In this document: piece by piece, positions 2,978 through 62,597 of the stretch
How the letters are laid out: every line of letters begins with the position of its first letter
Position numbering within the stretch: position 1 is the stretch's first letter
DNA from: Halioglobus sp.
GTDB lineage: Bacteria; Pseudomonadota; Gammaproteobacteria; Pseudomonadales; Halieaceae
Length of the DNA stretch: 64,000 nucleotides
Direction of reading: 5' to 3'
Assembly: GCA_002699145.1 (NCBI GenBank)
Contig: PABK01000021.1
Span: forward strand, 1-64,000
Notes under the pieces: model-generated
What the model saw: the letters and a program-made list of their open reading frames with translations, nothing else
What the model was told of the DNA's origin: nothing
The model's database searches: none
Program-made: the position numbers and the translations under genes

Positions 2978-3025
2978 TGTGTCAGTGGTGGCGGCAGGCG
3001 CTGCGGCCCGCTACCCCGCGGCCAT

Positions 3026-4852: not shown

Positions 4853-6535
4853 TCAGTCCTGCGCCGCGTAGCGCGCTTTCAACTCGCGCTTGAGCACCTT
4901 GTTGGTCGGGTTGCGCGGCAGCGGCTGCGCGCTGAAAAACACCTTGCTCGGCACCTTGTAGCCCGCCAGGCGCTCCTTCGCCCATGCCGTCAGGGTCCCG
5001 GCGTCCAGTGCCTGGCCCGCGTGCAGGTGGAGCACCGCCGCGACCTCCTCGCCCCAGCGCTCGTGCGGCAAGCCGATCACGGCGACCTCCCTGACGGCCG
5101 GGTGCTCGAGCAGCGTGTTCTCGATCTCCACCGGGTAGATGTTCTCGCCGCCGCGGATGACCATGTCCTTGGCGCGGTCGGCGAGGAACAGGAAGCCCTC
5201 CTCGTCCAGGTAACCCACGTCACCGGTCTTCAGCCAGCCGTCGCGGAACTCCTCGGCGGTGGCCTCGGGGCGGTTCCAGTACTCCCGCGCCAGCGTCGGG
5301 CTGCGCACCCAGATCTCGCCGGTCTCTCCCGTGGCCAGCTGTGCGCCCTGTTCGTCACAAATGCGGAACTGCACCACCGGATGGGGAAAGCCTGCACAAT
5401 TGGGCTTCTCGTGGAACGCGCGGCCGGTCATCGATGCGCCCTGGGCATTGGTTTCGGTCATACCCCAGCCGGTGCCGGAAAAATTCTGCGGCACCTGTTC
5501 GCGCACCAGGCTGGCCACGCGCGGCGGCGTGGCGGCGCCTCCCACACCGATACTGAACAGGCTGCTGGTGTCCGCCGCGGCGAAGCGGCTGGACTCCAGC
5601 AGATCCAGTAGCATGGAGGGGGCCGCGGCAACCATGGTGACGCGCTCCTGCTCGATGTAGTCCAGGGCGCGGTCCACGTCCCACTTGTACATCATCACGA
5701 TGCGCCGGCCGCCGCGCAGGTTGAGGAAAAACTGTGAATGACAGCCGCTGACATGAAACAGCGGCACGGCCAGCAGCGAGGTGGGCTCGAAACCACGCTC
5801 CAGCATTGCACCGATCAGCTCGCCGTTGGTCATGGCGGCGACGGCGGCGCTGCACTCCATATTGAAAATCGCCTGGCCCAGGGCGCGGTGTGTGGACGCC
5901 GCGCCCTTGGGTCGCCCGCTGGTGCCGGAAGTGTACATGATCATCGCCAGGTCCCCGGGGGCGATGTCCACCGGCCGGGGCGCACCGCCCCGGAAGGCGT
6001 CGACAAAGTTCGCCAGGCCGCGCGCGTCGGCGGCGTCGGCGGGCCGCGCGATAGCGCAACCGATGTCCTCGTCCTCCAGCATCTGCGCCACACCGTCGTA
6101 GCGCTGCTGGTCGCAGAGTACGAAGCTGGAGCCGCTGTCCTGTACCGCGTAGGCCACGTCCGCGGGCTGGCCCCAGCTGTTCACCGGCACGGCGACCGCG
6201 CCGATGCCGATGATGGCGAGGAAGGATGTCATCCATTCGGGGTAGTTGCGCATGGCGATGGCGACGCGATCGCCTTTGGCGACCCCGGCGGCCTGCAGGG
6301 CCGCGCCCAGGGCGTCGGCCTCGGCGAACAGCTCGGCGAAGCTGCGACGCTCGCCCTCGTAGACGAGGAATTCACGTTCGCCGTGCTCGCGCCCGGCGTC
6401 CAGCGCCTGCACCAGCGTCGCCGGGGCGTGGCGATAGTAGCGACCGCCGGCGCCGTCAGCGGCCAGCTCAAAGGGCGACCCGGGCGCCGTCATCTGCGCC
6501 ATGGCCTGTTCAAATTCCTGCATCAGTCCGGACAT
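4853..6535 (-). CDS. AMP-dependent acyl-CoA synthetase (class I adenylate-forming)
   Basis: Activates a carboxylic acid, probably a medium- or long-chain fatty acid, with ATP and CoA. The 560-residue protein carries the P-loop YTSGTSGRPKG (about 201-211), the GWGMTETNA motif (about 353-361), TGDVGYLDEEG (about 434) and the C-terminal catalytic lysine region NPTNKVLKREL near residue 545, all in the right order. The start at 6535 is chosen because GAGGGAG lies eight bases upstream; the in-frame extension to 6742 has no homology-like character. There is no signal peptide, so it is cytoplasmic. It is transcribed away from the fatty acyl-CoA reductase gene, suggesting it may supply acyl-CoA to that enzyme. 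The chain-length preference cannot be read from the sequence. Confidence 0.93.
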   Translation of the reverse strand: MSGLMQEFEQAMAQMTAPGSPFELAADGAGGRYYRHAPATLVQALDAGREHGEREFLVYEGERRSFAELFAEADALGAALQAAGVAKGDRVAIAMRNYPEWMTSFLAIIGIGAVAVPVNSWGQPADVAYAVQDSGSSFVLCDQQRYDGVAQMLEDEDIGCAIARPADAADARGLANFVDAFRGGAPRPVDIAPGDLAMIMYTSGTSGRPKGAASTHRALGQAIFNMECSAAVAAMTNGELIGAMLERGFEPTSLLAVPLFHVSGCHSQFFLNLRGGRRIVMMYKWDVDRALDYIEQERVTMVAAAPSMLLDLLESSRFAAADTSSLFSIGVGGAATPPRVASLVREQVPQNFSGTGWGMTETNAQGASMTGRAFHEKPNCAGFPHPVVQFRICDEQGAQLATGETGEIWVRSPTLAREYWNRPEATAEEFRDGWLKTGDVGYLDEEGFLFLADRAKDMVIRGGENIYPVEIENTLLEHPAVREVAVIGLPHERWGEEVAAVLHLHAGQALDAGTLTAWAKERLAGYKVPSKVFFSAQPLPRNPTNKVLKRELKARYAAQD

Positions 6536-20253: not shown

Positions 20254-21774
20254 CTACTTCTTCACCTGCAGCATGTACTCGGCCACCGCCAGGCGCGTGG
20301 CCTCGTCCAGGTAGTCCTGGGGCGGCATCTCCGGGTAGTCATCGCGTTTCTTGGTCGGCTCGGCGATGTAGTCGGCGATGCCCTGGGGGTTGTCCATGTA
20401 CAGCGCCTGGATGATCTGCACCGGCGGGCCGATCATGCGACCGGTGTAGGTGTGGCAGCCGGCGCAAATGCCCAGGTAGGCGATCTTGCCGCGGTCCTCG
20501 CCGTGAATCTCACGCGGGGGCACAGGCGCCAGCAGGTAGTTGGCGGTCTGGTAGGTATTGGTGAAGTCGCATTCGCCGAAATCCTCCAGTCCCACGGTCA
20601 CGTAGCGATGCCTGTTGATGATACAGCTGTCCTGCGACTTGCCGACACGCACGATATCCGGGTGACCGCTGGTCATTTTCAGCGCCATCAATGCCTTGAC
20701 GTCGCCGATGGTGTCGTAACCGTTGTTCAGCATGGTGTTGTTGAGAATTTTCACCCGGTCCGGGTTCGGCTCCGATTCCGGGTCGATAGTGACGTTGGCG
20801 GCGTTGCCGTGATCGGTGATCAGGATGCCGGTGGTCTTGTTGTCGCGAATGATGTTGCCCTCGATGACCACGTCGTCGGCGGCCATCACCAGGATGCCGG
20901 TACCCGCCGGAATACCCGACACCGTGGACCCGGGAGCGCCGAAATTCGGGTGATTGTTGGCGACCACGAAGTTGTTGCGAATGATGACATCGTAGGTCGT
21001 CTTTATCGGCAGCCCCGGCGTGATGAACGCGAGGATGCCGCCGGTGTTGTTGTACACCCGGTTGGCCTCGACGATGGCGTGGCGGCTGTTCTCGATCTCG
21101 ATACCGGCGACGCTGTCGAACACGTCGTTGTAGGCCACGTGTACGTTGTCGCTCATGCCGACATAGATGGCCGCATCCTCGATACCCGAGATGATGTTGT
21201 GTTCCACCACGCCGTTCTGGCCCAGTTGCGGGAAGATGCCGTACACGCCGGTATCGACGATCAGGTTGTTGCGAATCTCCCAGTTGTTGCCCGCCTGGCT
21301 CATGATGCCGTTGCCCTTGTAGGCGGTAATCTTGAAGTTCTCCACCACGATGTTGTTGCCGGAGTAGAGAATCGCGTCGTTGAGTTTGCCCTGGCCGTCC
21401 AGTGTGGCGCGGCGGCCCTTGTCGATGACCCCGACCAGCCGGATCCCGTCCTTGTCGATGTAAACGGTCTCGTGGTAGGTGCCGGGCATGACCTGGATCG
21501 TGGTGCCGGGCGCCGCATTCTGCACCGCCTCCTGGATAGACTCGCCGTCCTGCACCACCACCACGATATCGGTCATGGGCGGACCGGCCACCGATTTGGT
21601 GTTGCCGTCCAGGGTCAAGGTGTTGCCCTCCGCGGAGAAGCCCCCCTCGTAGGTGGCGGCGCTGCCACTACCAGTGATGACGGGCGCGGCCTGTTCCCCG
21701 CAGCCGCCGACACTGATACCCGCGGCAAATACCGCGCAGGTAAAGGCCAGGCCAAACAGTCTTGCAGTGTTCAT
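20254..21774 (-). CDS. Right-handed beta-helix lipoprotein with C-terminal cytochrome c domain
   Basis: A 506-residue fusion. The lipobox VGGC (Cys25) marks a lipoprotein. Residues of about 70-400 are a parallel beta-helix with many Asn-rich turns (NNIVVENFKIT, NVHVAYNDVFD, DVVIEGNIIRDN), as in carbohydrate-processing or polymer-binding proteins. The C-terminus is a monohaem cytochrome c with CAGCH at 437-441 and a probable axial Met483 in YPEMPPQ. The combination matches the described but uncharacterised family of beta-helix repeat proteins found beside cytochrome genes. It is translationally coupled to the diheme protein upstream by an ATGA overlap (21771-21774). Binding of a substrate by the helix with electron transfer by the haem is inference. 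Confidence 0.85.
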   Translation of the reverse strand: MNTARLFGLAFTCAVFAAGISVGGCGEQAAPVITGSGSAATYEGGFSAEGNTLTLDGNTKSVAGPPMTDIVVVVQDGESIQEAVQNAAPGTTIQVMPGTYHETVYIDKDGIRLVGVIDKGRRATLDGQGKLNDAILYSGNNIVVENFKITAYKGNGIMSQAGNNWEIRNNLIVDTGVYGIFPQLGQNGVVEHNIISGIEDAAIYVGMSDNVHVAYNDVFDSVAGIEIENSRHAIVEANRVYNNTGGILAFITPGLPIKTTYDVIIRNNFVVANNHPNFGAPGSTVSGIPAGTGILVMAADDVVIEGNIIRDNKTTGILITDHGNAANVTIDPESEPNPDRVKILNNTMLNNGYDTIGDVKALMALKMTSGHPDIVRVGKSQDSCIINRHRYVTVGLEDFGECDFTNTYQTANYLLAPVPPREIHGEDRGKIAYLGICAGCHTYTGRMIGPPVQIIQALYMDNPQGIADYIAEPTKKRDDYPEMPPQDYLDEATRLAVAEYMLQVKK

Positions 21775-22991
21775 GAAGATTCTCCCGGTATCGATTGGGT
21801 TGTCGCGATCTGCTCGCGCGCTGGGTGATTTATCGGCGTGAGGCCCGAGGGCACACGCACGGGAACGCGGGGCTTGAGACTCTCATCGGTCAGCGTACCG
21901 AGAAAGTCGACCAGGCGGTCCAGTTCGTAATCAGTGAGGTCCGGCGAGGTGATGTGCCAGTGCAGGTGCAGGTTTTCACCCTCGGGGACGGCGTGCCCGC
22001 GGCCGCCGTTGTAGAACGCCGCCGTATCGCGCAGGTTGTCGAACAGGCCCGAATGCATGTAAGGCGCGGTCAGCGCGACATTGCGCAGGGTCGGCACCTT
22101 GAAGCCGCCGCGCAGCTTGTCCGCGCCAAACACCGCCTGGGCGCCGGGGTCGAAGGGCAGGCCCTCGGGCTCGGGTGCGCCGATGACCGCCACCTGCTGG
22201 TTGGTAAACAACGGCGGCGTATGACATTCGGCACAGCGCGCGACGAACGAGCGGAAGATGTTCAGGCCCTCGATCTCCGGCGGCGTCAGCGCCGCGTGGA
22301 AACCGTGGGCGTAGCGGTCGTAACGGCTGTTCAGCGAGATCAGCGAGGTCTGGAAAGCCGCCAGCGCCTGGTACACCTGCTCCAGCTCGATGGCCTCGCC
22401 CGCGCGCTGCGCAAAGGCCTGCCGGAACATCGCGCGATAGGCGCGGTTGCCGTTGAGGGTGGCGAGCAACTGCTGTGGCGTATTGCCCATCTCCGCCGGG
22501 GCGAACAGCGGACCGGCCGCCTGCTCCTCGAGACTGGCGGCATGGGCGTCCCAGAAGAAACTGTCGAGGAAGGCGACGTTCCACAGGGTGGGCGCCGCCC
22601 GCGCCGCCTGCCGGCCGCCGATACCCACCGAGCGCGGCAGGCCGTCGCTGAAGCCCTGGTCGGGGTGGTGGCAGCTGGCACAGGAGATAGAGCCGTCCGC
22701 TGACAGCGCCGGGTCGAAGAACAGGTAGCGGCCAAGATCTATTTGCTGCGGGCTAAAGCCGTCGCGATGGTCCGGCAGGGACGTCTGCGTGCCGCCCAGC
22801 CCCTTGTCCTGCACCGAGTCGTACATCTCGTAGAGCGTACGCAGGCTGCAGGTGCCGGCGACGGTCTGCTCGAAACTCGGTGGACAGCGCTGCGACAGGG
22901 CAAAACCGTCGGGCGCGTCGGGCGCGGAAACGCCCAGACCGGCCGCCAGGGCCAGGCCGAGCACGACGCAGACGATCACGACACCGCGCAT
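21771..22991 (-). CDS. Diheme cytochrome c peroxidase/MauG-like protein
   Basis: A 406-residue exported diheme protein. A signal peptide (about residues 1-22) is followed by CASCH at 104-108 and CAECH at 253-257, spaced as in bacterial cytochrome c peroxidases and MauG. PTLWNVAF, FKVPTLRNVALTAPYMHSG and the C-terminal LVDFLGTLT are the usual landmarks. Such proteins either reduce hydrogen peroxide or oxidise a partner protein or polymer in the periplasm. It lies between a class-I-like diheme cytochrome (4-base gap) and the beta-helix/cytochrome fusion (4-base overlap), so all three are likely produced as an electron-transfer chain. Distinguishing peroxidase from MauG-type oxidase is not possible here. 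Confidence 0.9.
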   Translation of the reverse strand: MRGVVIVCVVLGLALAAGLGVSAPDAPDGFALSQRCPPSFEQTVAGTCSLRTLYEMYDSVQDKGLGGTQTSLPDHRDGFSPQQIDLGRYLFFDPALSADGSISCASCHHPDQGFSDGLPRSVGIGGRQAARAAPTLWNVAFLDSFFWDAHAASLEEQAAGPLFAPAEMGNTPQQLLATLNGNRAYRAMFRQAFAQRAGEAIELEQVYQALAAFQTSLISLNSRYDRYAHGFHAALTPPEIEGLNIFRSFVARCAECHTPPLFTNQQVAVIGAPEPEGLPFDPGAQAVFGADKLRGGFKVPTLRNVALTAPYMHSGLFDNLRDTAAFYNGGRGHAVPEGENLHLHWHITSPDLTDYELDRLVDFLGTLTDESLKPRVPVRVPSGLTPINHPAREQIATTQSIPGESS

Positions 22992-22995
22992 GTGC

Positions 22996-23613
22996 CTAGT
23001 CCTGCTGCGCCTGCGCGTGAATAAACGCGATCACGTCATCGAGGTCCTTTTCACCCGGCAGGGTTGCGGCCATCATTTTCATCTGGCGGCCATAGGTATC
23101 GTCCGGGTGAGAACCGCGCACGCCCTGCAGGAAGTTGGCGAACTGACGTTTCAGGTAGGCCGCGTCCAGCGTGTTCAGGCGCGGGGAATTGAGGCCGGGG
23201 TTGCCCTCCCCCGCGCCGCCGTGGCAGGCGCCGCAGCGGCCATGGTAGATGCTTTCACCGTTGCGCAGGTCAGTGCCCTGCGCGGGCGCCGGCTGCGGCG
23301 CGGGCTGTGCGGCCAGCCAGGCGGCGACCTGCGGGGCCGCGGCGGGCTCCAGGGTGGCCGTCATCGCGCGCATCTGCGCACCCGCCGTGTCCGCCGGGTC
23401 GGCGCCGCGCAGCCCGGAGCGGAAGTTCGCCAGCTGACGTTCCAGGTAGGGTGCATCCTGCCCGGCCAGTGCGGGTGCATTCTGTGCGGGATCGCCCTGC
23501 CCGACCGCGCCGTGGCACGCCGCACAGGGCTGGTAGGCCGCGGGCGCCCCGGCCTGCGCCATGGCGCCCAGGGCATAGGTTGACAGGACGATGGCTGCGA
23601 TCAGTGTTTTCAT
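22996..23613 (-). CDS. Cytochrome c4-like diheme cytochrome
   Basis: A 205-residue periplasmic cytochrome with two similar halves. The signal peptide ends at AMAQ (about residue 20). Haem sites are CAACH (30-34) and CGACH (127-131), and each half has the same YLxRQxANFxxGxRG-type helix and a Met-rich segment (MRAMTATL, MKMMAATL) for the axial ligand. This is the two-domain plan of cytochrome c4, a soluble electron shuttle. The start at 23613 is set by AGGAGAG eight bases upstream and by the signal peptide; the extension to 23823 is discounted. It is the first gene of the cytochrome operon and is divergent from a TonB receptor. Confidence 0.92.
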   Translation of the reverse strand: MKTLIAAIVLSTYALGAMAQAGAPAAYQPCAACHGAVGQGDPAQNAPALAGQDAPYLERQLANFRSGLRGADPADTAGAQMRAMTATLEPAAAPQVAAWLAAQPAPQPAPAQGTDLRNGESIYHGRCGACHGGAGEGNPGLNSPRLNTLDAAYLKRQFANFLQGVRGSHPDDTYGRQMKMMAATLPGEKDLDDVIAFIHAQAQQD

Positions 23614-23814
23614 CCGGTGGCTCTCCTGCAGGCGGTCGACTGGCGGGCGGTATTGAGGGTGGCGGCGATTAAACCACATAAAGTTAATACTGACTACTAT
23701 TTTTTCGGGCCACCATAAGTTAGTATAGGGCCCATAATCAAAGGCGGGCAAAACCGCGTCAACTGTCCGGGGCTTGAAGCTGTACCCCACAACCAACAGG
23801 AAGGTAGATACCAG

Positions 23815-26271
23815 ATGAGACACTCGATTCTGTCAGGGGCCCGTACACAACTGTATAGCGCAGTCGCTGCGACCGTTGTTTCACTCAGTGCGCCTGCACT
23901 TGCCCAGGAGCCGGCGTCCAACAATTCCGGCGGCCGCTATCAACTGACGCTGGAGGAAGTGCTGGTCACCGCCCAGAAGCGGGAGGAGAGCAGCATGACC
24001 GTGCCCATCGCGGTGAGCACCTTCACCGCCCAGGACATGATCAACACCGGCGCCAACGACATCGCCGACATCGACGATTTCATGCCCGGCGTGAAGTTCG
24101 GCGCGGTAACGTCGAACCAGTCAACCCAACTCGGCACGGAGATCCGCGGCGTGTCCAGCCCGAACATCTCCAGCGGCCAGGACCCCTCGGTGGCGACCTT
24201 TTATGACAACGCTTACCTGCCGCGGGCGGTAACCACCATCCCCTTCCTCGATATCCAGCGCGTGGAAGTGTTGAAAGGACCGCAGGGCACGCTGTACGGC
24301 CGCAACGCCACCGCCGGCGTGGTCAACATGATCCCCAACAAGCCCGACCTCGACGAATTCGAGGGCTTCGTGCGCTCACGCATCGGCAACTACGGTTTGC
24401 TGGACCTGGAAGGCATGGTCAACGTACCGATCAACGACACGCTGGCGGTACGCGCCAATATCCTGGACCACAGCCGCGACGGCATTTTCGATAACAAGGG
24501 CATCGGCGACGACCTGCGCGAGGAAGAGTACACCTTCGGCCGGCTGGCCATCGCCTGGGAACCCACCGACGACACGCGGGTGCAACTGGCCGGCGATATC
24601 GAGGATCGCGGCGGCAATACCAGCTACTCCATCGGGGTCAGCGAGTACGCCCTGAGCAACGATCCCTTCAACGACGACGTCGAGAACGACGCGGTGCCGC
24701 GCAAGGAAGAGCGCGACATGTACGGCGTATCCCTGCAAGTAGACCACGATTTCAACGACGAACTGTCCGTGTTCGGCATCCTCAGTTACCGCGACTGGGA
24801 CACCTTCAACCTGCAGGACGAGGACGGCACCGCTGCCATTCGCCGCTACCTGGACACCAACAACAAGGAAGATTCCGATATCTTCTACAGCGAGGTGCGC
24901 TTCAACTTCGTCAACGACCGCTTCGACATCATCGTCGGCGGCAACTACAGCAGCGAAGATGTCTACCAGCGCACGGACATCGGTCTGCGCGCGGATTCCT
25001 ACATGCAGTTTGTCAGCAACGAGTTACTGCCTTTCGCGCAGGACCTGGGCCTGATTCCCCCCGATGTCATGCTCGACCAGAACAGCCATATCTGGGATTT
25101 CTTCGCCGACGCCGACGATGCCACCTACCTGTTCTTCTCCCAGGCGGCCGGCGAGATCACCGGCCTGCCCACGGCGGTGCTGCCGCCGCGCTACGCCGGC
25201 GAGTACTTCACCGAGACCATGGACAACACGGGCGAGTTCGTCAACTGGGGCATTTTCGGCGACCTCACCTACAACCTCACCGACACGGTGCGCCTGATCG
25301 GCGGGTTGCGCTACAGCTACGACGAGAAGGACTACTCCTGGCAGACCTTCGACAATACGCTGGCCGGCTTCCCTGTCGCACCGGCGCGAGTGGCCTTCGA
25401 CCCCTCGGTGATCACTTCCGACCCGGCGGAATTTTTCGACAAGTTCGAGGACGACGAAAACTGGAGCAAGACCACCGGCCGCGCCGTAGCGGAGTGGAGT
25501 TTCATGGACAGCGCAATGACCTACGCTTCCTTCGCCACCGGCTACAAGTCCGGCGGCTTCGACGGCCAGTCCTTCGACGCGGTGCTATCCGGCCCCTTCG
25601 ACCCGGAAGACATGACCAGCTACGAGGTGGGCCTCAAGGGCGATTTCTTCGACGACACCGTGCGCATCGAGTTCGCCCTGTTCTACCAGGAACTGGACGG
25701 ACGCCAGGGCACCGAGTCGGTCAAGGACAGCCCCGACGACCCCACCGCGCAACCGCGGGTGGTGACATCGGACGAGGAAACCACCGGCTGGGAACTGTAC
25801 ACCCAGTGGCAGGCGCTGGAGACGCTGCGCTTTACCGCGTTGACCACCATGCGCGACATGGAGCGTGAGCAGGACCCGTACTTCGACGCCCGGGGAGAAC
25901 CCAAGGGTGGCGAAAAGGAAAACATCGATACGCGTACGGACTACACCATCAGCATGGACTGGACACCGGACATCCCGACCGGCTACCTGCTGGTGCACGT
26001 GGACTACATCTTCGACCAGAAGGCGGACGACTCAACCGCCACCATCTTCACCACCGGCCGCTGGTACTTCCAGGACCGCAAGCTGCTGAATGCGCGACTG
26101 GCCTGGTCCAACGACGCCGACACCATCGAGGTGGCGCTGTGGGGCAAGAACCTGCTTGACGAGGAGTTCGCGGAAAACCCGGGCGGCTTCGTCGCCGATG
26201 AACTGGGGGCCTACAAGACCAACGTCCAGGACCCGCTCACCTACGGCGTGGACCTGCGCTATAACTTCTGA
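23815..26271 (+). CDS. TonB-dependent outer-membrane receptor
   Basis: An 818-residue receptor. The signal peptide ends at APALAQ (about residue 31). A TonB-box-type segment EEVLVTAQKRE follows at 47-57, then the plug (VEVLKGPQGTLYGRNATAGVVNM) and a barrel ending in YNF. This plug signature is common in receptors of sphingomonads and marine gammaproteobacteria that import non-iron substrates, although siderophores are not excluded. It shares a 201-base intergenic region with the divergent cytochrome operon, which suggests a joint substrate-uptake and periplasmic-oxidation role. Note that this barrel is rich in acidic residues (many Asp/Glu), as expected for a marine organism. Confidence 0.93.
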   Translation: MRHSILSGARTQLYSAVAATVVSLSAPALAQEPASNNSGGRYQLTLEEVLVTAQKREESSMTVPIAVSTFTAQDMINTGANDIADIDDFMPGVKFGAVTSNQSTQLGTEIRGVSSPNISSGQDPSVATFYDNAYLPRAVTTIPFLDIQRVEVLKGPQGTLYGRNATAGVVNMIPNKPDLDEFEGFVRSRIGNYGLLDLEGMVNVPINDTLAVRANILDHSRDGIFDNKGIGDDLREEEYTFGRLAIAWEPTDDTRVQLAGDIEDRGGNTSYSIGVSEYALSNDPFNDDVENDAVPRKEERDMYGVSLQVDHDFNDELSVFGILSYRDWDTFNLQDEDGTAAIRRYLDTNNKEDSDIFYSEVRFNFVNDRFDIIVGGNYSSEDVYQRTDIGLRADSYMQFVSNELLPFAQDLGLIPPDVMLDQNSHIWDFFADADDATYLFFSQAAGEITGLPTAVLPPRYAGEYFTETMDNTGEFVNWGIFGDLTYNLTDTVRLIGGLRYSYDEKDYSWQTFDNTLAGFPVAPARVAFDPSVITSDPAEFFDKFEDDENWSKTTGRAVAEWSFMDSAMTYASFATGYKSGGFDGQSFDAVLSGPFDPEDMTSYEVGLKGDFFDDTVRIEFALFYQELDGRQGTESVKDSPDDPTAQPRVVTSDEETTGWELYTQWQALETLRFTALTTMRDMEREQDPYFDARGEPKGGEKENIDTRTDYTISMDWTPDIPTGYLLVHVDYIFDQKADDSTATIFTTGRWYFQDRKLLNARLAWSNDADTIEVALWGKNLLDEEFAENPGGFVADELGAYKTNVQDPLTYGVDLRYNF

Positions 26272-54748: not shown

Positions 54749-54777
54749 GGGAACCTTTGCGCCACTCGCTGCATTGA
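54749..54777 (+). promoter_or_regulatory. ECF-type promoter of the ferritin-like/cytochrome/sigma operon
   Basis: GGGAACCTTT (54749-54758), 12 bases and GCATTGA (54771-54777) lie 66 bases before the ferritin-like start. GGAAC is the classic ECF -35 core. The same two boxes with the same 12-base gap recur at 56665-56693, downstream of the sigma gene, which strongly suggests both are recognised by that sigma factor. Confidence 0.75.
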
Positions 54778-54843
54778 TGGGCTGGGCGCCACACCAGGGC
54801 GCGCACAGGCCACAGTATGCAGATAGCAATGGAGACCAGGACA

Positions 54844-55443
54844 ATGACTGCCGAACAAACCCACCGCTACCGGAGCGACGCCAGTGCGACGTCACGGCGC
54901 CGCTTTATCTTTAACTCACTGGGCATGACGCTCTCCGCCACCGCGGTGGCGCTGCTCAGTGGCCGCACGGAGCTGGCCAGGGGGGCCGGCACGCATACGG
55001 CGCAGTCCCCCGCCGAAGATGTGCAGATTCTCAACACCGCGCTGGCAGCCGAACGCGAGGCGGTCGCCGCCTACCAACTGGGAGCGGAAAGCACTCTGCT
55101 CACGCCGCCGGTATTGAAAGTCGCGATCCAGTTCCAGGGCCATCATCGCGAGCACGCCGACGCACTCGCCGCGACCATCGCAAAACTCGGCGGCGAGGTT
55201 GCCACGCCACCGGCAAGCTACGCCTTCCCGGTGGAGACGCTGCACAACCAGGCCGATGTGCTCAATTTCGCCGCCGGCCTGGAACGCGGCGCGGTCAGCG
55301 CCTACGCCGGCGCAATTCCCCTGTTTGCTAACCGCGACCTGAGCAACGCCGCCGCCAGTATCCTGGCCGACGAGGCCATGCACTGGGCCATCCTGCGCCA
55401 GGCGCTTGGCCTGGACCCGGTACCCGGCGCATTTTTCTCATGA
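54844..55443 (+). CDS. Tat-exported ferritin-like domain protein
   Basis: A 199-residue protein with a twin-arginine signal (SRRRFIF at 17-23, then a hydrophobic stretch), so it is probably exported folded, perhaps with metal bound. The mature part is a four-helix ferritin-like domain (PF13668 type): NTALAAEREAVAAYQLGAES, FQGHHREHADAL, FAAGLERGAVSAYAGAI and ADEAMHWAILRQAL carry the Glu/His ligands of a possible diiron site. The start at 54844 has GGAG upstream; upstream ATGs at 54817 and 54829 remain possible. It shares ATGA with the next gene. The ECF promoter upstream and the cytochrome behind suggest a periplasmic redox or metal-stress role. Confidence 0.85.
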   Translation: MTAEQTHRYRSDASATSRRRFIFNSLGMTLSATAVALLSGRTELARGAGTHTAQSPAEDVQILNTALAAEREAVAAYQLGAESTLLTPPVLKVAIQFQGHHREHADALAATIAKLGGEVATPPASYAFPVETLHNQADVLNFAAGLERGAVSAYAGAIPLFANRDLSNAAASILADEAMHWAILRQALGLDPVPGAFFS

Positions 55444-55859
55444 TACGCAGGCGGCGCCCACACCTGCGCTGGCTACCGGTGCTGCTGTGCGCGGGCGTCG
55501 CCTCGGCCGCGCCCGCCGGCGACCCCATACGCGGCGCCAGTATCTACCAGCGTTGCCTGGCCTGCCACGCGCTGTCCTATCATCGGGTTGGCCCCAAGCA
55601 CTGCGGCCTGCTGGGACGGCGCGCCGGGCGCGCACCCGGCTACGAGTATTCTGCGGCGATGCGCGACGCGGGCTTCACCTGGTCGCAACAGACTCTCGAC
55701 GCGTTCCTGGCCGCGCCTACGCAATACCTGCCAGGCACGAGTATGGGATACGCCGGCGTCCGCGACGCACGCGATCGCCGCGACCTGATTGCCTTCATCG
55801 CCGGAGCCTCGCGCGACACCGCGCGCTGTCCACCCGCGCAGGGGAGCGAGGCACAATGA
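55440..55859 (+). CDS. Small periplasmic cytochrome c (class I)
   Basis: A 139-residue monohaem cytochrome. A signal peptide (about residues 1-25) is followed by CLACH at 39-43 and a probable axial Met102 in PGTSMGYAG, with the usual class I spacing (cytochrome c2-like, KHCGLLGRRAG after the haem). It overlaps the ferritin-like gene by four bases and the sigma gene by four, so the three are tightly coupled. A role passing electrons to or from the ferritin-like protein, or signalling redox state to the sigma factor, is inference. Confidence 0.88.
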   Translation: MIRRRRPHLRWLPVLLCAGVASAAPAGDPIRGASIYQRCLACHALSYHRVGPKHCGLLGRRAGRAPGYEYSAAMRDAGFTWSQQTLDAFLAAPTQYLPGTSMGYAGVRDARDRRDLIAFIAGASRDTARCPPAQGSEAQ

Positions 55860-56554
55860 AAAGCGCGGACACGTCCGGGGCGAGCAGCGCGCCGCACGAG
55901 GCGACAGCGGACTGCGATGACCATACCCTCGTCGAGGGTATCAAGGCCGGGCAGGAACACCTGTTCGCCACGCTGATGCGCCGACACAACCAGCGCCTGT
56001 TTCGCGCCGCGCGCAGCATCCTCCCCGAGGACAGTCTGGCCGAGGACGCGGTGCAGGAAGCCTACGTCGCCGCGTACTACGCGCTGGGGAGCTACAAGCC
56101 ACACGGCAGCTTCGCCGCCTGGCTCAGCCAGATCACCATCAACGAGGCCCGCATGATCAGGCGCAAACGCAAACGCGACACCGAAACCCCGCTCGAGGAA
56201 ATCGAGGACAGCCCCTACGCAGCCGACCCGGATCGACAGGCCAACCCCGACCACGGTGCCGCCAACCTGGGCCTTGCCCGACTGCTGGAAAGCGAAATCG
56301 CCGGCTTGCCCGAGAACTTTCGGCTGGTCTTTGTGATGCGCGGTGTACAACAGCTCAGCGTGGAGGAGACCGCGCAGACACTGCGCTTGCCTGCTGCGAC
56401 GGTAAAGACCCGATATCACCGGGCACGCAAACTGCTGCAAAAAGCACTGGCGCCCTATATTGAACAGGCCGGCCTGAACATCTACGAGTTTGCCGGCCAG
56501 CGATGCGACCACATGGTGGCGACCGTCATGCGGCGGCTGCGCATCGAGCACTGA
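55856..56554 (+). CDS. ECF-type RNA polymerase sigma factor
   Basis: A 232-residue extracytoplasmic-function sigma factor. Region 2 reads EDAVQEAYVAAYYALGSYKPHGSFAAWLSQITINEA and region 4 reads LSVEETAQTLRLPAATVKTRYHRARKLL. There is a C-terminal tail of about 35 residues with one Cys (FAGQRCDHMV). No anti-sigma gene with a membrane segment is adjacent; the co-transcribed partners are instead an exported ferritin-like protein and a cytochrome c. The start at 55856 has GGGGAG upstream. Its likely targets are its own operon and the downstream cytochrome gene, both with the same promoter motif. Confidence 0.92.
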   Translation: MKSADTSGASSAPHEATADCDDHTLVEGIKAGQEHLFATLMRRHNQRLFRAARSILPEDSLAEDAVQEAYVAAYYALGSYKPHGSFAAWLSQITINEARMIRRKRKRDTETPLEEIEDSPYAADPDRQANPDHGAANLGLARLLESEIAGLPENFRLVFVMRGVQQLSVEETAQTLRLPAATVKTRYHRARKLLQKALAPYIEQAGLNIYEFAGQRCDHMVATVMRRLRIEH

Positions 56555-56664
56555 CACGTCCCCACGCCGCACCCCCGGACCTGTGCAGCGCCTGAGCCGA
56601 CCCCTCGCGCCGCACTGGCAACCAGTCTACGCACACCAATACCTTCTCTTTCCTTACCTGTGCC

Positions 56665-56693
56665 GGGAACCTTTTCTCTGGCGGCGGCATTGA
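56665..56693 (+). promoter_or_regulatory. ECF-type promoter of the diheme cytochrome lipoprotein gene
   Basis: GGGAACCTTT (56665-56674), a 12-base gap and GCATTGA (56687-56693) repeat the boxes and spacing of the promoter at 54749-54777. It lies 114 bases before the next start codon. The bases between the boxes differ, so the match is of promoter elements, not of a duplicated segment. Confidence 0.75.
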
Positions 56694-56807: not shown

Positions 56808-58025
56808 ATGAACACGGTTTTTCAGCACAAGCTGCTCACTACACTGGCGCTGGTGATCGTCGTAACGGCCTGCAGCGACGGCAATGGCAATCGCGGTGGC
56901 GCTGTGGATGACAGCGTCATGATCGCGCAGGGCCGGGAAATCTTTCGCCACGATACATTCGGCGACGAGGCCTTCTGGAGCGACACCTTACGCATGCACG
57001 AGGTCATCGCAAACGCCGTCGACCCGGTCACCGCGCTGTCGGTTGGTCTCAAGGTCGATGTGGAAGCCTTGCCAGAGGAACTGGTGGCTGACCTGGCAGA
57101 CGGCAAGGTGGAGCTGGAGAATCCGGCAACAACGATCGCCCTGCTTAAACTTGACGCCGTGGTCGGCCTAAAAGGCACGGTTGCAACCGTCGGCGGCGTC
57201 GATACGCTGACGCGGGTCGGCATAACCTGCGCTCTGTGCCATTCGACCGTCGACGACTCATTTGCGCCCGGCATCGGCAAACGCCTTGATGGCTGGGCGA
57301 ACCGCGACCTCGACCCGGGCGCGATCATCGCGCTGTCACCGGCACTGCCAGCTCAGACCAGGGCGGTATACAAGTCCTGGGGGCCGGGTAAGTACGATGC
57401 CCGCTTTAACCTCGACGGCCTCAACGGGGCGCATGTCATCCCGCCTGCCTACGGCCTGCACGGCATCGACCGCATCACCTCGACCGGGGACGGCGATGAC
57501 ATCGCCTACTGGAACCGCTACGTGGCCGTGACGCAGATGGGCGGACAGGGATCGTTCTACGACGAGCGCACGGGGGTGAATATCACCAATGGCAGCGAAG
57601 ACCTGGTGTCTTCCAAACTGCCCGCGTTGCAGGCTTACCAGCTGAGCCTGGAACCACCGACGCCGCCCCCGGGCAGTTTCGACGCGGACGCCGCAGCGCG
57701 CGGTAAAGCCGTGTTCGAAGGCGCCGGGCAATGCGCGAGCTGCCACAGCGGGGAACGCTATACCGACGCCAACCAGAGGCTGCACCAACCCGGTGAGGTT
57801 GTCAGTGAACCCGAACCGGACGGCGCGCCGAGCTGGGCTGCGCGCAGTGCGACGCAGCTGTATCGCACGGCGCCGCTTGAAGGTATCTGGCAGCATCCGC
57901 CCTACTTCCACAACGGCAGCGCGGCGACGCTGGACGCCGTGGTCGAGACCTACAACAGCAGGAAGCAGCTGGGCTTGAACGCTGCGCAAAAAGCCGATCT
58001 CGTCGAGTTCCTGAAGAGCCTTTGA
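56808..58025 (+). CDS. Diheme cytochrome c lipoprotein
   Basis: A 405-residue lipoprotein (lipobox VTAC, Cys22) with two haem sites: CALCH at 141-145 and CASCH at 309-313. The C-terminal third (ARGKAVFEGAGQCASCHSG, then GIWQHPPYFHNGSAATLDAVVETYN) resembles the C-terminal domain of cytochrome c peroxidase/MauG proteins, but the N-terminal part is unfamiliar. It should be membrane-anchored in the periplasm and act with the cytochrome and ferritin-like protein of the upstream operon, whose promoter motif it shares. GGAGAAAGGG lies right before the ATG. Confidence 0.85.
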   Translation: MNTVFQHKLLTTLALVIVVTACSDGNGNRGGAVDDSVMIAQGREIFRHDTFGDEAFWSDTLRMHEVIANAVDPVTALSVGLKVDVEALPEELVADLADGKVELENPATTIALLKLDAVVGLKGTVATVGGVDTLTRVGITCALCHSTVDDSFAPGIGKRLDGWANRDLDPGAIIALSPALPAQTRAVYKSWGPGKYDARFNLDGLNGAHVIPPAYGLHGIDRITSTGDGDDIAYWNRYVAVTQMGGQGSFYDERTGVNITNGSEDLVSSKLPALQAYQLSLEPPTPPPGSFDADAAARGKAVFEGAGQCASCHSGERYTDANQRLHQPGEVVSEPEPDGAPSWAARSATQLYRTAPLEGIWQHPPYFHNGSAATLDAVVETYNSRKQLGLNAAQKADLVEFLKSL

Positions 58026-58997: not shown

Positions 58998-59065
58998 CAT
59001 TATTAATAATTGTAATAGTTCGCCATACTGCCCCACTTTCAGTCCCCGATCCTCCAGGAGTGCCC

Positions 59066-60844
59066 GTGACCGCCCGGCCACCACCGGCCTCGCCGACCGA
59101 ACTGTTTGCGCCTGAGCAGTGGCAGCGAATCGACAGCCTGCTGCGCCAGTTCGACAGCGCACAGTCGCTGTGGCTGAGCGGCTACCTGGCCGCCAGCGCC
59201 AGTGGCAAGCAAGGCGAGGTGGCACTGCCGGCCTCCGGCGCCCCCGCGTTGACCATCGCCTACGGCAGTGAAACCGGCAACTGTGAACAACTGGCGCGCA
59301 ACCTGCACCAGCAGGTGCTGGAACTCGGGCACAGCGTGCAACTGACGGACCTGGCCACGCTGAAGGTGCGGCAATTGCGCAAGCTCGATACCCTGTGGCT
59401 GATCGTCAGCACACACGGGGACGGGGACCCGCCAATCACCGCGGCGGACTTCCACCGCGACCTGTTCGCCGCGGACCACCTGAAACTCGGCAGCCTGCAC
59501 TATGCCGTGCTGGCATTGGGCGACAGTACCTACGAGCACTTCTGCCAGACCGGCATCGATTTCGACGCACGCCTCGCCGCGCTGGGTGCGCGGCGCCTGG
59601 CGGAGCGCGTCGACTGCGACGTCGATTTCGAGACGCCGGCGCGACAGTGGTGCGAGCAGCGACTGGCCGCGCTGCCAACTGCCGACAGGGCGACAGCGCC
59701 TGCCGCGGTCGCACAGGACCCGCGTGCCGACTCGTCCTCCCTGTACAGCAAACAACGACCGCTGCGCTCGGAAGTGCTCGAACAGTTGGCGCTGTCCGCC
59801 GCGGACCGCCCGCTGGGCAACTATCACCTGAGCCTGGCCATCGAGGAAGGCAGCCTGCCGCTGCAACCCGGCGACGCGGTCGGCGTATTCGCGCACAATC
59901 CCCACACACTGGTGGCGGCCGTACTGGACCTGGCCAGGCTGCAAGGCGAGGCGGGGGTAAGCATCGACGGCCGCGCAATGTCGCTCGCCACTGCATTGGG
60001 CTCGGCGCGCGACCTCGCGATTCCGACAAGAAAGCTGCTACAGAGCTGGGCTGCCTGGAGCGGCGATACGGACCTGGTCACACTGGGCGAAGACAGCAAG
60101 CAGGCACGCAGCTGGCTGAAACAGAGACACCTGCTCGACGTACTGCGCACTGCCCCGGCCAGGGTGCCGTCGGCCCAGGCGTTGGTCGACGTACTGCGGC
60201 CGCTGCAACCGCGCCTGTACGATGTCGCCAACCATGTCAGCGCCGACAGCGATGAACTGGAATTGCTGGTCAAGCGCTTCAATTACCCGCTGGGCGACCG
60301 GGAGTACGCGGGAATCGCCTCGCACTACCTGTGCGATCTCGCGGTGGGCGATTCGGTACGCATCTATCCGCACCGCAATGCGCGCTTCGCCCTGCCGCAA
60401 GTCGAAAACCCTGTGATCCTGGTCGGCTACGGTACCGGGGTCGCCCCGTACCGCGCCTACCTGCAGGCCCGGGCAGCGCGAGGAGACAGGAACCCCTGCT
60501 GGCTGGTCCTGGGCGAAAAAAGCTACGAAGAGGATTTTCTCTACCAGCTGGAATGGCAGGGATGGCTTGCCAGCGGCCTGCTGTCCCACCTCGACCCGGT
60601 TTTCGCCGACGACGAGCCGCGGCGTTCACTGGTCAGTGCGTTCCTCGACAAGGCCGACCGGCTACAGCGCTGGATCGATGACGGCGCGCTTGTCTACCTG
60701 TGTGGCGACAAGGCCGTGCTGGAGCGGTGTGAAGAGCAGATGCAGGAAGCACTGCGCATCGCCAGCGGCTGCTCGCGCGATGAGTGCGCGACACTCTGGC
60801 AGTCCCTCGTCGACGAGCAACGCGTCAGGCGCAATCTCTATTGA
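59066..60844 (+). CDS. cysJ: Sulfite reductase flavoprotein subunit, divergent CysJ
   Basis: A 592-residue flavoprotein with an FMN flavodoxin domain (YGSETGN at 66-72), an FAD domain and a nicotinamide domain (GYGTGVAPYRA near 455, VYLCGDK) ending in Tyr. It should pass electrons to CysI, encoded ten bases downstream, reducing sulfite to sulfide. Two deviations stand out. The FAD motif RxYS reads RLYD (383-386). The segment that normally reads SRD-x-K-x-YVQ and binds the NADPH 2'-phosphate reads FADDEPRRSLV (from 513), losing Ser and Arg. Use of NADH or another donor is possible. The GTG at 59066 is preferred to 59060 because AGGAG ends at 59060. Confidence 0.9.
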   Translation: MTARPPPASPTELFAPEQWQRIDSLLRQFDSAQSLWLSGYLAASASGKQGEVALPASGAPALTIAYGSETGNCEQLARNLHQQVLELGHSVQLTDLATLKVRQLRKLDTLWLIVSTHGDGDPPITAADFHRDLFAADHLKLGSLHYAVLALGDSTYEHFCQTGIDFDARLAALGARRLAERVDCDVDFETPARQWCEQRLAALPTADRATAPAAVAQDPRADSSSLYSKQRPLRSEVLEQLALSAADRPLGNYHLSLAIEEGSLPLQPGDAVGVFAHNPHTLVAAVLDLARLQGEAGVSIDGRAMSLATALGSARDLAIPTRKLLQSWAAWSGDTDLVTLGEDSKQARSWLKQRHLLDVLRTAPARVPSAQALVDVLRPLQPRLYDVANHVSADSDELELLVKRFNYPLGDREYAGIASHYLCDLAVGDSVRIYPHRNARFALPQVENPVILVGYGTGVAPYRAYLQARAARGDRNPCWLVLGEKSYEEDFLYQLEWQGWLASGLLSHLDPVFADDEPRRSLVSAFLDKADRLQRWIDDGALVYLCGDKAVLERCEEQMQEALRIASGCSRDECATLWQSLVDEQRVRRNLY

Positions 60845-60854
60845 GGCAATCGCT

Positions 60855-62597
60855 ATGGCTGGAGACACACTGGATCGAAGTCGAGACCGCTCACAACCGG
60901 TGGCGAAGTTGTGCAGCAACGAGCAGCTCAAGGCGCGCAGCCGCTTTCTGCGCGGCGATATCGCGCAGGGGCTGATCGACAGCAGCACCAGGGCGGTACC
61001 CGGCGACGACACCCTGCTGATGAAGTTCCATGGCATCTACATGCAGGATGACCGCGACCAGCGGTCAGACAGGCAGCGGCGCAAGCTCGAACCCAACTAC
61101 CAGTTCATGGTACGCCTGCGCATTCCCGGCGGCGTCCTCAGCACCAGTCAGTGGCTGGGCCTGGACAAGCTGGCGCGACACTTTGCGGAACGCGGCCTGC
61201 GTATCACTACACGCCAGACGATACAGTTGCACGGCGTGCGCAAGCCGCGCCTGCGCGCCTGTATGCAGGCAATTCGCGATATCGGCCTGGATACCATCGC
61301 CGCCTGTGGCGACGATTCACGCGGGGTCATCTGCGGGTTCAATGTACAAAGTGCGCCAGTGCAGCGCCAGGTGGCCAGTCTCGCGCGGCAAACCAGCCAG
61401 CTGCTCATCCCCAGGACGGGCGCGTACCGCGAAATCTGGTACGGCGAGGATGTGGTGTACAAGAACCAGCTCGAGGATCCCGACTACGGGGAGACCTACC
61501 TGCCGCGCAAATTCAAGGTGGGATTCGCCCTGCCGCCCGTCAATGACATCGATGTCTATGGCCAGGATGTCGGCTTCATCGCGATTACCGAGGGCGACAG
61601 CCTTGCGGGATTCAACGTGGTCGTCGGTGGCGGCATGGGTCAGCTCGATACCCGCGATGACAGCTACCCGCGCCTCGCCGAACCCGCCGGCTTTGTCGCC
61701 GCCGAACGCGCTCCGGCGCTGGCGCTGGCGATCATGACCATTCAGCGCGACTACGGCGACCGCGTCGACCGACACCGTGCGCGTTTCAAGTACACACTGG
61801 ACCGCCTGGGTATGGACAGTTTCCTCGAACTGCTCACGCAACGCTGGGGCGAGCCACTACAGCCGCCACGGGCATTTACCTTCACGCACAACGGTGATCC
61901 ACAGGGGCTGCAACAGGATTCAGAGGGCCTGTGGCACGCGACACTGGAAATCGCCAACGGCAGGATCCAGGGCGCGCTACAAGACCAGCTACAGGGCTTC
62001 GTGCAATCCTTTGCCGGCTACCTGCGACTTACCACCAACCAGAACCTGATACTGGGCGGCATAGAACCGGATTTGCTGGAGACCTCGCAATGGCGTCTTG
62101 ACGATCTTGGACTCGCCGCGAGGCTGTCACCCTCGTTGCAGTCGACCTACAGCCTGTCCTGTGTCGCCCTGCCCACCTGCGGCCTCGCCATGGCGGAAGC
62201 GGAACGCATCATGCCGCAGCTGTTGCAACGCTTCGAGGACAGCAAGGCCAGCTTCGGACTGCAAGACATACCCATCACCCTGCGTGTTACCGGCTGCCCC
62301 AACGGCTGCGCCCGGCCGTACATTGCCGAGATCGGCCTGACGGGGCGAGCGCCGAACCTGTACAACCTGTACCTCGGAGGCGGCTTTCACGGCGAGCGCC
62401 TGAACCAGTTGTACGCCAGCAACGTCAGTATCGACCGGGCATTCGAATTGCTCGACCCGCTGCTCGCGCGCTTCGCCGCCGGGCGGCAGGCAGGCGAGCA
62501 TTTTGGCGACTACCTGATCCGCTGCCGCATCGTCCAGGCGATTGCCCACGGCAGTGATCCGCAGCGCATGATTCCAGTACTGGAGGAACATTCATGA
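60855..62597 (+). CDS. cysI: Sulfite reductase hemoprotein subunit CysI
   Basis: A 580-residue sirohaem/4Fe-4S enzyme. Cluster cysteines are Cys436, Cys442 (CVALPTCGLAMAEAER) and Cys481, Cys485 (GCPNGCARP), within two residues of E. coli CysI numbering. The sulfite-binding basic residues are present in VRLRIPGG, CGDDSRGVICG and LPRKFKV. The hemoprotein is thus canonical although its flavoprotein partner is not. It is followed with a four-base overlap by the first DsrE-family gene, so sulfide production is coupled to a sulfur-carrier-like set. Confidence 0.95.
   Translation: MAGDTLDRSRDRSQPVAKLCSNEQLKARSRFLRGDIAQGLIDSSTRAVPGDDTLLMKFHGIYMQDDRDQRSDRQRRKLEPNYQFMVRLRIPGGVLSTSQWLGLDKLARHFAERGLRITTRQTIQLHGVRKPRLRACMQAIRDIGLDTIAACGDDSRGVICGFNVQSAPVQRQVASLARQTSQLLIPRTGAYREIWYGEDVVYKNQLEDPDYGETYLPRKFKVGFALPPVNDIDVYGQDVGFIAITEGDSLAGFNVVVGGGMGQLDTRDDSYPRLAEPAGFVAAERAPALALAIMTIQRDYGDRVDRHRARFKYTLDRLGMDSFLELLTQRWGEPLQPPRAFTFTHNGDPQGLQQDSEGLWHATLEIANGRIQGALQDQLQGFVQSFAGYLRLTTNQNLILGGIEPDLLETSQWRLDDLGLAARLSPSLQSTYSLSCVALPTCGLAMAEAERIMPQLLQRFEDSKASFGLQDIPITLRVTGCPNGCARPYIAEIGLTGRAPNLYNLYLGGGFHGERLNQLYASNVSIDRAFELLDPLLARFAAGRQAGEHFGDYLIRCRIVQAIAHGSDPQRMIPVLEEHS

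Follow-up and report, generated by a model that had tools for sequence, protein, structure and literature searches.

We describe a probable self-regulated regulon of an extracytoplasmic function (ECF) sigma factor in Halioglobus sp., located within the first 64,000 nucleotides of contig PABK01000021.1 (the whole stretch analysed, hereafter the window). Two copies of one bipartite element, the putative promoters P1 and P2, precede, respectively, a very probable operon encoding a ferritin-like protein, a small cytochrome c and the sigma factor, and an adjoining gene encoding a diheme cytochrome. We consider it likely, with a probability of roughly three in four, that these genes constitute a small regulon in which a sigma factor of the ECF29 type regulates itself through P1 and a neighbour gene through P2, in which the products are exported proteins of iron or redox metabolism, and in which a C-terminal tail of the sigma factor takes the place of an anti-sigma factor.

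The putative twin promoter element and the genes it precedes

A first-pass annotation of this DNA had proposed two ECF-type promoter sites with identical boxes and a differing 12-base spacer. Both sites are present on the + strand:

54749-54777, + strand: putative promoter P1; extended -35 box GGGAACCTTT at 54749-54758, 12-base spacer, -10 box GCATTGA at 54771-54777
56665-56693, + strand: putative promoter P2; extended -35 box GGGAACCTTT at 56665-56674, 12-base spacer, -10 box GCATTGA at 56687-56693

The full motif, GGGAACCTTT-N12-GCATTGA, matched the window twice and had no match in 100 dinucleotide shuffles of it. In the source assembly (5.2 Mb in 61 contigs, 99.5% complete, with the window as its contig C37) the genome scan that the annotation had called for returned the same two exact matches and nothing else, against none in a backwards control, and the many random matches it had named as a warning sign were absent for the full motif both here and in a sister genome, G012. 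When one mismatch was allowed to GGAACNNTT-N12-GCATTGA, P1 and P2 were still the only matches in the assembly (control, 1), and GGGAACCTTT-N11-14-GCAT occurred exactly twice in this genome and exactly twice in G012, with the same genes downstream and no match in either control. Shorter or looser forms fell to background: GGAAC-N16-GCATT with one mismatch matched the window twice, exactly in each case and at P1 and P2, versus 3.16 in shuffles, and GGGAAC-N15-17-CATNNA gave 19 matches versus 20 in the control for this genome and 18 versus 14 for G012. The extended -35 box thus appears to carry much of the information, and no further promoter beyond P1 and P2 was found genome-wide with the full motif.

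The spacers of P1 and P2 agree by eye at only 4 of 12 positions, so a recent duplication of one promoter seems unlikely. In the sister locus (L003), whose promoter sequences are those of G012 and which probably represents the same organism and is counted with it as one sister, both boxes of P2 are identical to those of the window while the surroundings have diverged; the equivalent of P1 reads GGGAACCTTT...GCATATA.

The genes associated with the two sites are as follows:

54844-55443, + strand: ferritin-like gene with a twin-arginine signal (Pfam Ferritin_2 5e-33, DUF4439 1.8e-12, both scored on a longer open reading frame from 54817)
55440-55859, + strand: small cytochrome c gene, one CxxCH, probable signal peptide by eye (Pfam Cytochrom_C 8.6e-05)
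55856-56554, + strand: ECF sigma factor gene, ECF29 type (Sigma70_r2 and r4_2; NF008888; placed with RpoE8 in a tree)
56808-58025, + strand: diheme cytochrome gene, probable lipoprotein, RoxA/MauG/cytochrome c peroxidase-like (RoxA-like_Cyt-c and Cytochrom_C above cut-off)

Since the ferritin stop/cytochrome start and the cytochrome stop/sigma start are both ATGA overlaps, the first three genes very probably form a single operon. P2 sits in the gap between the sigma gene and the diheme cytochrome gene, beyond which a LysR gene lies on the opposite strand; no anti-sigma-like gene was seen near the sigma gene among the genes of the window. For the ferritin-like gene a start at 54844 is preferred over 54817, with GGAGACCAGGACA preceding the ATG by eye. 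Its product belongs to the Ferritin_2 family (114.6 bits, cut-off 24.7) and is predicted to have a ferritin-like fold, the model being a four-helix bundle that matched Rv2844, a Bacillus ferritin-like protein and bacterioferritins (structures 2ib0, 2qqy and bacterioferritins; best E 1.8e-4). Twin arginines near the N-terminus and the candidate di-metal ligands E70, H101, H104, E147, E177 and H180 are found in all 26 aligned rows; His101 occupies a position at which many ferritins carry Glu. The small cytochrome c matched the NCBIfam cytochrome c-550 profile at 6e-23, under the cut-off of that profile. The diheme cytochrome carries a lipobox-like TACS (by eye) and two CxxCH motifs, the latter present in 14/14 rows; it scored 34.8 bits against RoxA-like_Cyt-c (cut-off 26.7) and 56.6 against NCBIfam CytoC_perox, far under the cut-off of 150, and its C-terminal part gave weak matches to solved diheme proteins, some of them peroxidases.

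Two further groups of genes in the window were recorded. Genes for a sulfite reductase-like flavoprotein and hemoprotein (59060-62597) adjoin the LysR gene, and relatives of them also lie beside a Mesorhizobium locus (L110); a link to the sigma family was judged not to be a rule, with flavoprotein matches in three loci (L003, L110, L045) and a hemoprotein match in one (L110). A second diheme peroxidase-like gene, a weak match to the diheme profile, is found at 21771-22991 on the - strand, flanked by CxxCH genes (by eye) at 20254-21774 and 22996-23823, both also on the - strand.

An ECF29-type sigma factor with recurrent promoter motifs and partner genes

ECF groups are defined by protein sequence, the -10 consensus being descriptive. 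The window sigma factor scored 235.7 bits against NCBIfam NF008888 (PRK11922; cut-off 204), and in a quick tree of 99 sequences it fell within an 84-row clade, supported at 88, under the 95 mark, by the Shimodaira-Hasegawa-like approximate likelihood ratio test (SH-aLRT), that contains RpoE8 of Sinorhizobium meliloti. Sequences without the C-terminal tail described below fell outside this clade, except L069, whose frame ends differently. On the basis of the tree and of the shared tail we assign the window sigma factor to the group of RpoE8, which is an ECF29 sigma factor according to Lang et al. 2018 (PMC6180224). The passages of that paper on RpoE8 give an ECF29 promoter with -35 GGGAAC and -10 GCATCCAA, of which a second perfect match precedes the neighbouring gene SMb20593. 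Our RpoE8 locus, L104 from S. meliloti strain RCAM1115, contains the published SMb20593 promoter letter for letter and an rpoE8 promoter one base off the published version. In a review table, ECF29 is listed among groups with a regulatory extension and without an anti-sigma factor, under the mechanism 'Others' (PMC8999054). The window sigma factor likewise combines a C-terminal extension, FxFxGxRC as in RpoE8, with no anti-sigma gene, and GGGAAC is present at both window sites. With the -10 in print the window shares GCAT; CCAA is replaced by TGA at both window sites, at P2 of L003 and in L004, and the L003 equivalent of P1 has GCATATA.

The first-pass annotation had stated that no such system was known. 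This is not supported for the kind of system, given the kinship with RpoE8 and an ECF29 promoter already in print together with its second match before a neighbour gene (PMC6180224). The sections of that paper on RpoE8 do not state a regulon content like that of the window, and searches of the open-access literature brought up no paper in which an ECF29 regulon includes ferritin, cytochrome or diheme genes. Within that literature, then, three features are apparently undescribed: the set of genes in the regulon, the variant form of the -10, and the pattern of the tail cysteine.

To follow the promoter through the family, the best 80 of 199 relatives from a genome scan were kept and plasmid loci added. 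Sigma rows were taken from + strand matches only, so that L090 (the sister's copy in G012), L091, L095 and L096 have no row; the upstream count started from 99 sigma rows and excluded the 16 that lack the tail pattern as well as L085, which is the window's own copy, leaving 82. L069 is included in the 84 rows of the tail alignment and in the 82-locus motif and partner counts, and is not in the upstream count. Directly upstream of these 82 tail-bearing sigma genes, GGAAC-N15-18-CATCNAA was present in 49 (mean of 200 mononucleotide shuffles, 0.035) and a looser CATC/CATT form in 56 (shuffle mean 0.57). On the opposite strand the strict and looser forms gave 0 and 1, and inside genes 2 and 3. Across the 82 loci (777 kb) the family motif GGGAAC-N14-17-CATCNA occurred 85 times; 20 local shuffles averaged 1.65 (maximum 4), and the reversed sequence gave 1.

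These counts also bear on whether P1 and P2 might be unrelated repeats that match by coincidence, a reading to which the background level of the loose motif versions lends something. The exact form, found twice against none in the control, the matching pair of sites in the sister genome and the 85 family motifs against 1.65 already disfavour it, and we regard it as very improbable.

Among the 85 family motifs, 39 do not precede a sigma gene. Five of these precede the diheme gene (L011, L015, L016, L022, L036) and one a separate ferritin gene (L038); others lie, by coordinates, just after the sigma gene and before DUF4142 genes (L056, L059, L061, L065, L066, L098, L104, L106, L110). With so many motifs away from sigma genes and several before partner genes, this sigma family repeatedly shows, in the sequences compared, a second promoter at a neighbouring operon, although many loci are close kin in the tree and the motif and partner counts overstate the number of independent events. 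Beyond the loci themselves, GGGAAC-N16-17-CATCYAA was searched in the genomes behind 16 of them and gave 16 matches in 8 genomes, versus 2 in the control, the other 8 genomes having none; the regulons therefore look small. One Burkholderiales metagenome-assembled genome (MAG) carries two adjacent ECF29-type sigma genes (L009:4067-4780 and 4965-5687), each with GGGAACG...CATCTAAT upstream.

Partner genes fall into recurrent modules. By homology search, Ferritin_2 was found in 25 of the 82 loci and cytochrome c in 25, with both in 24; DUF4142 was found in 25 and cupredoxin in 22, with both in 22; and the diheme cytochrome was found in 12. At least one of the ferritin, DUF4142 and diheme families is present in 58/82. 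Ferritin and DUF4142 never occur together, ferritin and diheme genes do so only in L003 besides the window, and DUF4142 and diheme genes do so in L011, L022 and L036. We take DUF4142 to be ferritin-like; a common sequence ancestry with Ferritin_2 was not seen (hhalign probability 0.4%).

Same-strand neighbours were also collected with a home-made open reading frame picker that misses some genes, which returned one for 50/81 loci at position +1, 39/80 at +2 and 52/80 at -1; in L104 the gene picked at +1 was replaced by the annotated DUF4142 gene and moved to the +2 set. Pfam then assigned 18/50 of the +1 genes to Ferritin_2, 7/50 to DUF4142, 7/50 to DUF305 and 3/50 to PF00210, and at +2 cytochrome c accounted for 9/40 and cupredoxin for 7/40; position -1 was mixed. 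No anti-sigma family appeared among the neighbour families listed (the first 25 of 33, 34 and 49 for the three positions), from a picker that misses genes.

Within the genus, the ferritin gene, the diheme gene and close sigma copies were each present in the same 2 of 18 genomes, which suggests that the three genes are gained and lost together; sigma matches at 27 to 30% identity in three further members were taken for other ECF sigma factors.

Other gene associations were noted on plasmids. In L152, from a plasmid of Gemmatirosa kalamazoonensis with no sigma match in the stretch, a DUF4142 gene (2420-2857) stands directly before a diheme gene (3001-4074), so that the two families also meet outside the Pseudomonadota. 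Neighbours of ECF29 genes on plasmids include GTP cyclohydrolase I (L101, L106, L110), which also accounts for 5/52 upstream same-strand neighbours, a group III truncated hemoglobin (L106, L107, L110), and DUF2189 with DUF6522 (L101, L107).

The sigma tail, the -10 variant and the proposed mechanism

The sigma factor ends in an extension that is shared by its relatives:

56483-56551, + strand: C-terminal extension of the sigma factor, residues 210-232, FxFxGxRCDR-like with Cys217 (alignment; predicted helix 214-231)

The consensus of this tail, roughly FxFxGxRCDRxV, is kept across Alpha-, Beta- and Gammaproteobacteria, with Phe212 in 83/84 rows, Gly214 in 83/84 and Cys217 in all 83 rows that have a letter there; the last count is in part a product of selection, the rows having been picked with a pattern that requires the cysteine, and it is the tree that independently supports the grouping. 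The next commonest cysteine column is occupied in 26/84 rows. AlphaFold predicted a helix at 214-231, with mean confidence of 83 and 91 for the blocks over 211-230 and an overall predicted TM-score (pTM) of 0.59. When solved structures were searched by sequence (E up to 1e-5), the best-matching stretches all ended at or before profile position 212. A Pseudomonadales MAG has a single open frame of 706 residues (L042:4929-7049, + strand) that joins an ECF29 sigma factor, the tail, a linker, a hydrophobic stretch and a diheme cytochrome; the diheme part starts with a second ATG that has a purine-rich stretch before it, so a sequencing error or the loss of a stop codon may account for the frame. 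Searches of 369 genomes of the class, where none of the 13 matches listed spanned both parts, and of plasmids, where 223 records matched and none covered 80% of the query, turned up no further fusion.

The -10 variant of the window coincides with a change in sigma region 2. Among the 84 rows, 77 of which have Thr at residue 88, Ala88 is confined to the window, L003 and L004, and these are the three sigma factors with a GCATTGA -10 where promoters were read. At residue 101 the same three have Ile, Ile and Gln, respectively, and 77/84 rows have Arg. L070 also departs at residue 101 (Gly), yet has a promoter with GCATCCA, and L042, a neighbour in the tree, combines Gly88 with GCATCTA. Residues 88 and 101 are close to the region-2 helix with which E. 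coli SigE reads the -10. A single ancestor may be common to the three sigma factors with Ala88, and Ala88 with GCATTGA is therefore counted as one event.

We propose the following mechanism. The sigma factor would bind RNA polymerase and recognise GGGAACCTTT-N12-GCATTGA at P1 and P2. P1 would drive the ferritin-like/cytochrome c/sigma operon, giving positive autoregulation, and P2 would drive the diheme cytochrome gene. The products, most likely exported, would be a di-metal ferritin-like protein carried by twin-arginine translocation (Tat), a small cytochrome acting as electron carrier and a peroxidase-like diheme cytochrome anchored in the membrane; given the ferritin-like and diheme protein families, they may together handle ferrous iron and/or peroxide outside the cytoplasm. 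The sigma factor itself would most likely be held inactive, or tuned, by its own tail with the conserved cysteine. On sequence grounds autoregulation is well supported, and the regulon of ferritin-like, cytochrome c, sigma and diheme genes under two ECF-type promoters, as the first annotation had envisaged it, gains support as well.

A less probable though serious alternative is that control over the sigma factor, which would still activate its own promoters, comes from an anti-sigma factor encoded elsewhere or from a transcription factor, the tail being structural. For EcfQ of Bradyrhizobium japonicum, which lacks an anti-sigma gene, an unknown transcription factor was suggested in the pertinent part of the original report (PMC3420878), and the lack of targets on overexpression of RpoE8 alone (PMC6180224) would fit an inhibitor made in excess. 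Against an unlinked regulator may be set the neighbour families listed above, with no anti-sigma family among them, and the tail is kept over three proteobacterial classes, more than would be expected of a structural end. Rather unlikely, and somewhat more so than unlinked control, is that the purpose of the regulon is not stress protection but electron transfer or the oxidation of metals, with ferrous iron or nitric oxide-linked respiration as examples. In favour of this, a small electron carrier, either cytochrome c or a cupredoxin, is part of two of the three partner modules, and genes for cbb3 oxidase, truncated hemoglobin, NnrS or hemerythrin are found near some plasmid loci; such neighbours, however, occur in only some annotated plasmid loci, and Tat-exported ferritin-like and diheme peroxidase-like proteins suggest detoxification.

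Several observations weigh against the autoregulated, tail-controlled regulon that we prefer. Among the 82 tail-bearing sigma genes, 26 have no motif directly upstream, some carrying it farther upstream, and in 24 of 82 loci the three partner families are all missing by the criteria used (within these, L009 has a short ferritin match, L010 a partial diheme match and L099 a gene annotated as ferritin-like). The window form GGAAC-N13-21-GCATT gave only 12 matches versus 7 in the control in 80 loci, of which, as far as inspected, only those of L003 and L004 were seen before a sigma-linked gene, and the GCATATA at the sister's P1 shows that the -10 varies at its end, GCAT alone being firm. Inspection of Amphritea (L050, L080) showed no GGGAAC box ahead of the ferritin gene. 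A promoter before the diheme gene was sought in seven plasmid loci and none was found close to the gene: this includes four rhizobial loci with no sigma match in the stretch, one loose match in L148 lying about 600 bases before the gene, and two from Cupriavidus that do have a sigma relative in the vicinity. Finally, no target could be detected when RpoE8, for which no anti-sigma factor is known, was overexpressed 126-fold (PMC6180224, section 10). This result is hard to square with a switch driven simply by the sigma level, unless activation also requires a signal.

A bolder proposal, which we put forward as speculative and probably too strong as a whole, is that the ECF29 tail with its single conserved cysteine is an on-board redox, metal or heme sensor that replaces the anti-sigma factor and switches on iron/peroxide balance, that the diheme cytochrome may act as an outer sensor in some lineages, and that the change of the -10 from CATC to CATT together with Ala88 represents a natural shift of promoter specificity. 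If the tail were indeed a sensor, a single compact protein, the sigma factor, would both sense the signal and activate a periplasmic iron/redox programme. A concrete target list for ECF29 sigma factors is provided by the partner modules and by the second promoters that are conserved, and the conserved tail cysteine is a concrete residue for mutation.

Comparison with known ECF systems

Two ECF systems were considered and rejected as identities of the window system. RpoE1 and RpoE4 of S. meliloti (ECF26) resemble it in that an ECF sigma factor governs redox genes, including one for a cytochrome c-like protein; unlike the window, ECF26 as described in the relevant sections of PMC3511301 and PMC6180224 has a downstream membrane anti-sigma factor and a GGAATA/GT promoter, neither of which was found in the window, where the promoter is GGGAAC/GCATTGA and the next gene encodes the diheme cytochrome. 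EcfQ and EcfF of B. japonicum are induced by reactive oxygen species, and EcfQ shares with the window sigma factor the lack of an anti-sigma gene; they belong to groups 33 and 16, and the parts of PMC3420878 that deal with them describe no tail or promoter like those of the window.

The closest known system is RpoE8. To its authors' knowledge in 2018 no ECF29 sigma factor had been studied in detail, and they called the regulation of RpoE8 a mystery (PMC6180224). As far as the RpoE8 passages of that paper go, the window system shares with it the sigma clade, the cysteine-bearing C-terminal tail, the -35 GGGAAC, the GCAT start of the -10 and the lack of a known anti-sigma factor, as well as the motif before the sigma gene and again before a neighbour gene, with a small electron-carrier gene close by. 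It differs in its -10, GCATTGA in place of GCATCCAA, in its partners, which are Ferritin_2, cytochrome c and diheme cytochrome genes in the window and DUF4142 and cupredoxin genes at the RpoE8 locus, and in the position of the sigma gene, last in the operon of the window whereas rpoE8 stands first.

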